Assembly: GCA_040754335.1 (NCBI GenBank) | Contig: JBFMCV010000002.1 | Span: 186,001-250,000, forward strand | Length of the DNA stretch: 64,000 nucleotides | Source: Thermodesulfobacteriota bacterium | GTDB taxonomy: Bacteria > Desulfobacterota_D > UBA1144 > Nemesobacterales > UBA2774 | Direction: 5' to 3' | Part shown: positions 30,847 to 34,320 of the stretch, in pieces | Layout: every line of letters begins with the position of its first letter | Numbering within the stretch: the first letter of the stretch is position 1 | Made by a program: the position numbers and the translations under genes | Notes under the pieces: generated by a model | What the model was told of the DNA's origin: nothing | Seen by the model: the letters and a program-made list of their open reading frames with translations, nothing else | The model's database searches: none

Positions 30847-31128
30847 ATGACCGATCATACATCTGGCTTACCGACCGCGGGAGAGCTCACGGAAGCGCTC
30901 GGAGCGGCGGGCTTAGCTCATCACGAATACGAGCAGACCGCGCTCGGGGGCGTGCGCCACGAGGAATGGGCTGTGTTCTACGCCGCATACGTCCTCGGAA
31001 GGTTGGGGGACTTCGCCAAACCGAGCGATCTGACCAGGTGGCTCGGTGAAGCGCCGCTCACCGACAACTGGGCGGAATCCGCGGCCGCTCATGTACTTTC
31101 CGAGATCGGCCGGGGCCTCAAGTGCTGA
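30847..31128 (+). CDS. Small conserved protein of unknown function
   Basis: 93 residues, acidic, no signal peptide. A conserved core GGVRHEEWAVFYAAYVLGRL is followed by a helix. I do not recognise the family securely; similar short proteins with an E-x-x-W-A-x-F/W-Y-A-A-Y core exist. A 5'-truncated copy lies at 34138-34320 and a 3' fragment at 33331-33365. In the truncated copy most changes are conservative (for example Asp to Glu, Ala to Ser), which supports this being a real gene. Confidence 0.6.
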   Translation: MTDHTSGLPTAGELTEALGAAGLAHHEYEQTALGGVRHEEWAVFYAAYVLGRLGDFAKPSDLTRWLGEAPLTDNWAESAAAHVLSEIGRGLKC

Positions 31129-31138
31129 GGTTCGAATC
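31104..31138 (+). repeat. 35-bp repeat with tRNA T-arm-like part, copy 1
   Basis: Starts GATCGGCCGGGGCC and contains GCTGAGGTTC-N-AATC. It matches 33331-33365 at 31 of 35 positions without gaps. Its left part is the 3' end of the small gene at 30847; the right part resembles a tRNA T-arm. It brackets the ADH and SnoaL-like genes together with copy 2. Confidence 0.6.
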
Positions 31139-31529
31139 TTCCAGCAGCTAGAAAGTTTCCACGAAAAAAATTATCCGCATCAGAGTTATTATTGCACACT
31201 GAATACAGCTTTCGGATTCAGCTGTAACTTGCATCGAACACAAGCGGAATATTAAGACATAGTTAAGCAATGTTGTTTTTCCAATTTGGTTTGGTATCGT
31301 AAATAAATAAAGCCTTTCACGGATGACCTCCCGCACATCCGCACAAATTGGAGATAAATCTAATCTGGAGGAAATTTATACGGACGGATAGAGAAACCGA
31401 CCAGTGATATTTGACCGGCGGTGTCTCGGCCGATTCGCCGTTAACGGGAGAAATCGACTCTATTCCATTCGACAAAATAGGAGCGTGTATTAACTCGTCA
31501 AATCCAAAATATGCAAGGAGGTCGTAGAT
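31129..31529. other. AT-richer gap upstream of the dehydrogenase, no gene seen
   Basis: Contains the end of repeat copy 1 and then about 380 bp without a supported gene or structured RNA. The last 20 bp hold the strong ribosome site AAGGAGG of the dehydrogenase. The base composition is lower in GC than the flanks, as expected for a junction. Confidence 0.35.
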
Positions 31530-33312: not shown

Positions 33313-33330
33313 ACAGGTTATTATTCCCTC

Positions 33331-33365
33331 GATCGGCCGGGGCCGCTAGCGCTGAGGTTCTAATC
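33331..33365 (+). repeat. 35-bp repeat with tRNA T-arm-like part, copy 2
   Basis: Match to 31104-31138 (31/35). Here the sequence runs on as CTCTCCGCTGCC, so that GAGG-TTCTAAT-CCTC and a 7-nt acceptor-like strand follow, like a tRNA 3' end without CCA. Confidence 0.55.
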
Positions 33366-33462
33366 CTCTCCGCTGCCGGAATCCCGCGCCGAATACGTCC
33401 CAAGTCATTTTTCTGCATCAGCTGACCGATTGACACAGCTGCGGGACATATATTAAAATGAA

Positions 33463-33556
33463 TATCAACTAGAAGGGCAAACCATTTGAAAGAATGGGAC
33501 GCAAAGTCACAGGCCTAAGGACATTCCGTTTACGGCGGCTGGATTGCTATAGTGAA
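33463..33556 (+). ncRNA. Cyclic di-GMP-I (GEMM-I) riboswitch
   Basis: Matches the GEMM-I consensus closely: AGGGCAAACC, then stem CCATT-TGAAAG-AATGG with the GAAA loop, GGGACGCAAAG, and GGCCTAAGG (receptor side). The second hairpin is CCGTTTACGG, followed by a closing strand near TATAGT that can pair with ACTA at the 5' side. The base matching Vc2 G20 is G, which predicts c-di-GMP rather than cGAMP binding. It lies in sense orientation about 105 nt ahead of the gene at 33661. Confidence 0.9.
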
Positions 33557-33660
33557 CCTGATTAAGTCGAACGACTGCACGCACCTTCCCCGAATTTCTC
33601 CTTTGCACCCCGTCTCCGGAACCGGTCTGCCCTTGAATAAATCGGCAGAGGAGGTAGGCA

Positions 33661-34098
33661 ATGGCACGTAAGAAAGGCATTCCGAAAATGTCGGCGAAAG
33701 GGGCGGGCGGCGCTGCGTTCGATTTGGCCGGCATTAAATTCAGTTCCGTAGTAGGGGAGAAGAGTAACTACAACTTCCAGCCCGAGGTGACGGAGTATGA
33801 CCTCTGGCCGTTCTCCACTATAGAATGGGTCACGGCGGAGGGAAAATACAGGGCGCGGGCAATAGTCCAGCACAGGACGACCCGCGACATGGTCGCCTTT
33901 AATTCCTGGCACGAGGATTTCGGCGACGCTGAGCGTCCCATTGATCTTTTGAGGCACAGCCTGCAGGGAACGGCGGAGAGGCCGGTATACAACATCTTCG
34001 GCGAGACGATCGAGGTCCACACCGCCGACATCGGCGGAGGGTCGGTTGTGAACGTCACCGAGGTGCTTGCGCTTATCTGGTCGATGACCGAGAGCTGA
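33661..34098 (+). CDS. Unknown protein under a c-di-GMP riboswitch
   Basis: 145 residues, no signal peptide, basic N-terminus (MARKKGIPKMSAKG), then a mixed alpha/beta chain with WPFSTIEWVTAEGKYRARA and a Gly-rich turn (DIGGGSVVNVTE). I recognise no family. Strong ribosome site GGAGG 6 nt before ATG, part of which may be occluded by the hairpin at 33626-33649. The riboswitch ties it to a c-di-GMP-controlled lifestyle switch such as motility or biofilm formation. Confidence 0.75.
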   Translation: MARKKGIPKMSAKGAGGAAFDLAGIKFSSVVGEKSNYNFQPEVTEYDLWPFSTIEWVTAEGKYRARAIVQHRTTRDMVAFNSWHEDFGDAERPIDLLRHSLQGTAERPVYNIFGETIEVHTADIGGGSVVNVTEVLALIWSMTES

Positions 34099-34137
34099 AG
34101 AAGCGGGCGCCCATGTCTAAGGGACACGACTCCCCGC

Positions 34138-34320
34138 GAATACGAGCTGACAAGGCTCGGGAGCGTGAGACACGAAGAGTGGGCCGTGTTCTACTCCGCA
34201 TACGTCCTCGGAAGGTTGGGGGAGTTCGCCAAGCCGAGCGATCTGACCAAGCGGCTAATTGAAGCGCCGCTCGCCGGCAACCGGACGGAATCCGCGGCAG
34301 CTCATATTTTTTCTCCGTGA
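34138..34320 (+). pseudogene. 5'-truncated copy of the small gene at 30847
   Basis: Sixty codons matching residues about 27-87 of the 30847 product (RHEEWAVFYSAYVLGRLGEF, then SDLTKRLIEAPL), ending in TGA. The frame upstream runs without ATG, GTG or TTG back to the stop of the preceding gene, so the start is lost. The DNA match is high, and the 3' end diverges after GCTCAT. Confidence 0.75.

Follow-up and report, generated by a model that had tools for sequence, protein, structure and literature searches.

The class I c-di-GMP riboswitch Vc2 of Vibrio cholerae has the pocket bases G20, A47 and C92 (PMC4744006). In one account it is an OFF switch that acts on translation, with the stability of P1 as the key factor (PMC9262584), and its mechanism is still called unknown in PMC4744006. 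Two other GEMM-I riboswitches, Cd1 and pilM, act on transcription and have terminators (PMC9262584). The G20 position is viewed as contributing to selectivity without being a strict filter (PMC9262584). Our search of the literature for riboswitches of Dadabacteria found nothing relevant.

Here we analyze a leader from a 64,000-nucleotide stretch (the window) of a Candidatus Dadabacteria genome, which lies ahead of a gene for a 145-residue protein. This leader is similar to Vc2 in aptamer class, in pocket bases and in the OFF mode that we propose below. It differs in its downstream gene and in the partner proposed for the switching strand, which is the 5' part of the core that holds G20, whereas P1 stability is the feature stressed for Vc2. 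With Cd1 and pilM the leader shares the GEMM-I fold and, in the mode proposed here, the location of switching strands downstream of the aptamer; however, those riboswitches use terminators, whereas a search for an intrinsic-terminator-like site between the aptamer and the start codon of our leader found none.

Identification of the aptamer and its gene

Scanning of the window with cmscan revealed a single riboswitch match, to RF01051 (c-di-GMP-I, GEMM-I), which extended over the full length of the model (positions 1-87) at 73.5 bits and E 1.5e-12, the gathering cut-off being 35 bits. The first-pass annotation had taken the leader for GEMM-I-like on the basis of GGGCAAACC, a GAAA loop, GGGACGCAAAG and GGCCTAAGG, all of which occur in the sequence, and had proposed the covariance search that now bears it out. 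It had also read the equivalent of G20 as the sign of a c-di-GMP-type pocket, and the G is indeed in place: in the cmscan alignment G33476 corresponds to G20, A33503 to A47 and, most likely, C33547 to C92, the register of the last being the least certain of the three pocket bases. Variants of the cGAMP type have A at the G20 position.

The aptamer is on the same strand as the gene and 3' of a promoter (Table 1). This arrangement is common to three sister genomes (Candidatus Dadabacteria MAGs of the same genus), in which RF01051 was detected at the same place ahead of the same gene, and TTGACA and a TAGAAT -10 box are retained upstream of the riboswitch. Since the promoter ends at 33459, transcription would be expected to start at the aptamer, near 33466.

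Table 1. Features of the leader and its gene (window coordinates)
Feature	Position	Strand	Basis or remark
Sigma-70-type promoter TTGACA-18-TAAAAT	33430..33459	+	11/12 consensus positions
c-di-GMP-I (GEMM-I) aptamer	33466..33551	+	RF01051, 73.5 bits; 74.1-74.6 in three sister genomes
Arm A, AAGGGCAAACC, aptamer core with G20 equivalent (33476)	33473..33483	+	10/11 complementary to arm B
Arm B, GGTCTGCCCTT, proposed switching strand	33624..33634	+	Pairings by RNAduplex
GGCAGA, 3' arm of TCTGCC/GGCAGA hairpin	33644..33649	+	Leaves GGAGG free
Ribosome binding site AGGAGGTAGGC	33649..33659	+	Sequence; would pair with arm B in the ligand-bound state
ORF of uncharacterised 145-residue protein, apparently monocistronic	33661..34098	+	Sister-genome identity 86-87%, dN/dS about 0.1

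Two features of the aptamer, its short P1 (ACUA/UAGU) and a P3 loop that falls one base below the consensus length, might suggest a decayed or non-functional copy or a sensor of cGAMP. However, the aptamer is 95-98% identical to those of the sister genomes, compared with 81-84% for the part of the leader 3' of it, and it carries G, not A, at the G20 position, so that we regard both possibilities as highly improbable. Judged by its sequence, the aptamer is a true member of the class I c-di-GMP riboswitches, with a G20-type pocket and c-di-GMP as its predicted ligand.

The ORF behind the leader differs from its counterpart in each of the three sister genomes at 65-70 of 435 bases. Third codon positions account for 46-49 of these differences, and the dN/dS ratio lies at 0.10-0.12. 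By these comparisons it is a real, conserved coding gene.

Pairing in the leader and a proposed switch

Using RNAduplex, we calculated -17.0 kcal/mol for pairing of arm A with arm B in the window, and -11.7 to -17.0 kcal/mol across the orthologs and a second copy of the leader (the C8 copy, see below). The shuffle fraction for this pairing was 0.014 and 0.010 in two calculations for the window and 0.002-0.076 across the four orthologous leaders, which are few and closely alike. Among 76 aptamers of the class, complementarity to the core at p<0.05 was found downstream in 12 versus 2 in the upstream control (Mann-Whitney p 0.0002, with related leaders counted as independent). Arm B can also pair with the ribosome site, whose GGAGG is at 33650-33654, with -13.1 kcal/mol in the window; across the four orthologs the values are -9.0 to -14.3 kcal/mol.

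G20 and bases of P1b fall within arm A, and therefore pairing of arm A with arm B and the binding of ligand should be mutually exclusive. As arm B can pair with the core of the aptamer as well as with the ribosome site, we predict that the leader is an OFF switch of translation. The transcript would start at the aptamer, and the leader would be part of a single-gene message. At low c-di-GMP, arm B would pair with arm A, leaving the ribosome site open, and the protein would be made. With c-di-GMP bound, arm A would be locked in the aptamer, and arm B, thus freed, would mask the ribosome site and turn translation off. On this model, most synthesis of the 145-residue protein would take place when c-di-GMP is low, in motile or planktonic cells. 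As supporting context, the 3.26-Mb host genome has six GGDEF domains and nine RF01051 aptamers.

In the three sister genomes, forcing the aptamer to fold lowered the computed accessibility of the Shine-Dalgarno sequence (SD) from 0.42-0.53 to 0.11-0.20, and in the window the value barely changed (0.40 to 0.38); thus, the proposed direction of switching is drawn from the sister genomes. It is this direction that a translational ON switch would reverse: the ligand-bound aptamer would lead to a hairpin between arm B and GGCAGA, with GGAGG exposed, and the unbound leader would hide the site in some other way. This hairpin is a perfect 6 bp in the window (-10.6 kcal/mol), and it is part of the fold computed for the window with the aptamer forced. 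In the sister genomes, however, it falls to -2.0 to -5.4 kcal/mol while the pairing of arm B with SD stays, and the computed SD accessibility with the aptamer folded is lower there, not higher. An ON switch is thus unlikely. The same values bear on the hairpin TCTGCC/GGCAGA of the first-pass annotation, which had suggested that it controls translation. The hairpin is present (33626-33631 with 33644-33649), and control of translation remains the reading that we infer; the hairpin, however, is probably not the conserved or the main switch, since its pairing is weak in the sister genomes and its formation alone does not cover GGAGG.

It is even less likely that control is exerted on transcription or mRNA stability instead of translation initiation, for example by Rho-dependent termination in the C-rich stretch of 110 nt that lies 3' of the aptamer. 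Such a long C-rich region would suit this mode, but there is no intrinsic-terminator-like site from the aptamer to the start codon, and each of the four orthologs has an arm B complementary to SD. The most likely mode, which we hold with moderate confidence, is a c-di-GMP-I riboswitch in the leader of the 145-residue protein gene that probably turns translation OFF through an exchange among arm A, arm B and the ribosome site.

The 145-residue protein

Searches against Pfam, NCBIfam, PHROGs and PDB sequences gave zero matches to the protein (Pfam and NCBIfam at E up to 10), in agreement with the earlier statement that the gene belongs to no known family. PilZ or any other c-di-GMP-binding domain was likewise not detected by Pfam or NCBIfam at E up to 10. 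We found only two homologs outside the sister genomes, one in a Chlorobiota MAG (59% identity, L019) and one in Dadabacteria CSP1-2 (45%, L014 and L020), and neither has a riboswitch ahead of it. A search of 387 relatives found homologs in the five already-known genomes only, the genus of CSP1-2 being the only one besides that of the window and its sister genomes, and none was found in phages, plasmids or viral contigs.

A structure prediction, also proposed in the first-pass annotation, was obtained with AlphaFold2 from two alignments; however, the models were too poor for use (mean pLDDT 52.8 and 56.9). Foldseek with these models gave no PDB match below E 0.16, and scattered, noise-level matches to Whirly, Pur-alpha and PrgE structures were discarded. 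Inspection by eye had raised the idea of membership in UPF0339/DUF1508 (YegP), which the protein superficially resembles in a YRARA..FNSWH.DF.DAE..I segment and in a predicted beta-beta-beta-alpha order. This idea was rejected, as there was no Pfam or other sequence match and the profile comparison with hhalign gave a probability of 0.5%.

The protein looks like a soluble member of an undescribed family. One might speculate, with little confidence, that it is a small cytosolic binding protein, and not an enzyme, with a core of a beta-meander and a helix and a basic N-terminal tail. The description of the protein as a new c-di-GMP effector is too strong and is not supported, because the protein matches no family in the databases searched, shows no match to a known c-di-GMP-binding domain, and its two remoter homologs are without a riboswitch. 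The last point also indicates that control by c-di-GMP is not an inherent property of the protein family. The effector is the RNA, and the protein is the regulated gene product.

Other RF01051 aptamers and a copy of the leader

In the same genome, RF01051 also occurs ahead of a fusion of PilZ and aminotransferase, PilM and a LuxR-type regulator, and by reading of ORFs the further targets are a lytic transglycosylase, a glucose-dehydrogenase-like secreted protein and more uncharacterised proteins. This gene set is an ordinary c-di-GMP regulon. In the fusion (L001:1501-3093; G000:C3:141073), the PilZ domain is joined to a class I/II aminotransferase, so that c-di-GMP might be sensed at both levels, RNA and protein.

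The LuxR-family regulator (GerE domain, E 1.7e-15) is preceded by a leader (G000:C8:53167, the C8 copy) that is 92% identical to the window leader over 164 nt. The similarity begins with the aptamer and extends into arm B, up to and including GGTCTGCCC, and the flanks are unrelated to the window (53% before, 60% after). Arm B of the C8 copy has a new 3' partner, with which it forms a hairpin of -9.9 kcal/mol shortly before the ATG. Since the window version of the leader is found genus-wide ahead of the 145-residue protein gene, the C8 copy would seem to be the derived one. In one sister genome (L060:1501-1595; G002:C96), a third copy of the aptamer, 92% identical over 95 nt and without the remainder of the leader, precedes the gene of a TPR protein. 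A tentative generalization, which we think could well be wrong, is that GEMM-I riboswitches of Dadabacteria commonly operate through a distal strand that can pair with the ligand-binding core of the aptamer, that the leader is a mobile cassette, and that the 145-residue protein is the first described member of a family controlled by c-di-GMP.

Surroundings of the locus

A 33-nt fragment of the 3' end of tRNA-Met lies between a conserved gene for a 93-residue protein and the riboswitch promoter in one sister genome (G001, L018:6780-6960), with one mismatch and one gap and an alignment score of 54 versus 25 for the best of 300 shuffles. In another (G002, L016:3950-4530), tRNA-Met-like fragments are readable on both sides of the 93-residue protein gene, and the copy in the window (33324-33368) is degenerate. 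These fragments may mark an old integration site. The homolog in CSP1-2 (L014:1861-2084) is located ~150 bp 3' of the end of a tmRNA gene, another typical integration site; this tmRNA is a sub-threshold Rfam match (E 1.7e-7) that is truncated where the contig ends.

A 45-nt direct repeat (82%) at 31097-31141 and 33324-33368 of the window brackets a 2.2-kb block that contains an alcohol dehydrogenase and a SnoaL-like gene, both of which tblastn found to be absent from the sister loci examined; at the corresponding spot the third sister genome (G003) has a serine-hydrolase-like gene. The 93-residue protein gene (30847-31128) has a second, decayed copy at 34130-34314 (184 nt, 84%), directly 3' of the 145-residue protein gene.

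Implications

The riboswitch class at this locus is known, the family of the 145-residue protein is undescribed, and the wiring of the switch is what we infer. An undescribed conserved protein family joins the genes under predicted direct control by c-di-GMP, in a phylum, Dadabacteria, which as far as we found is known only from uncultured genomes. The window leader gives a concrete, testable model of switching, and its copy ahead of a transcription regulator illustrates how a new gene can acquire a riboswitch.
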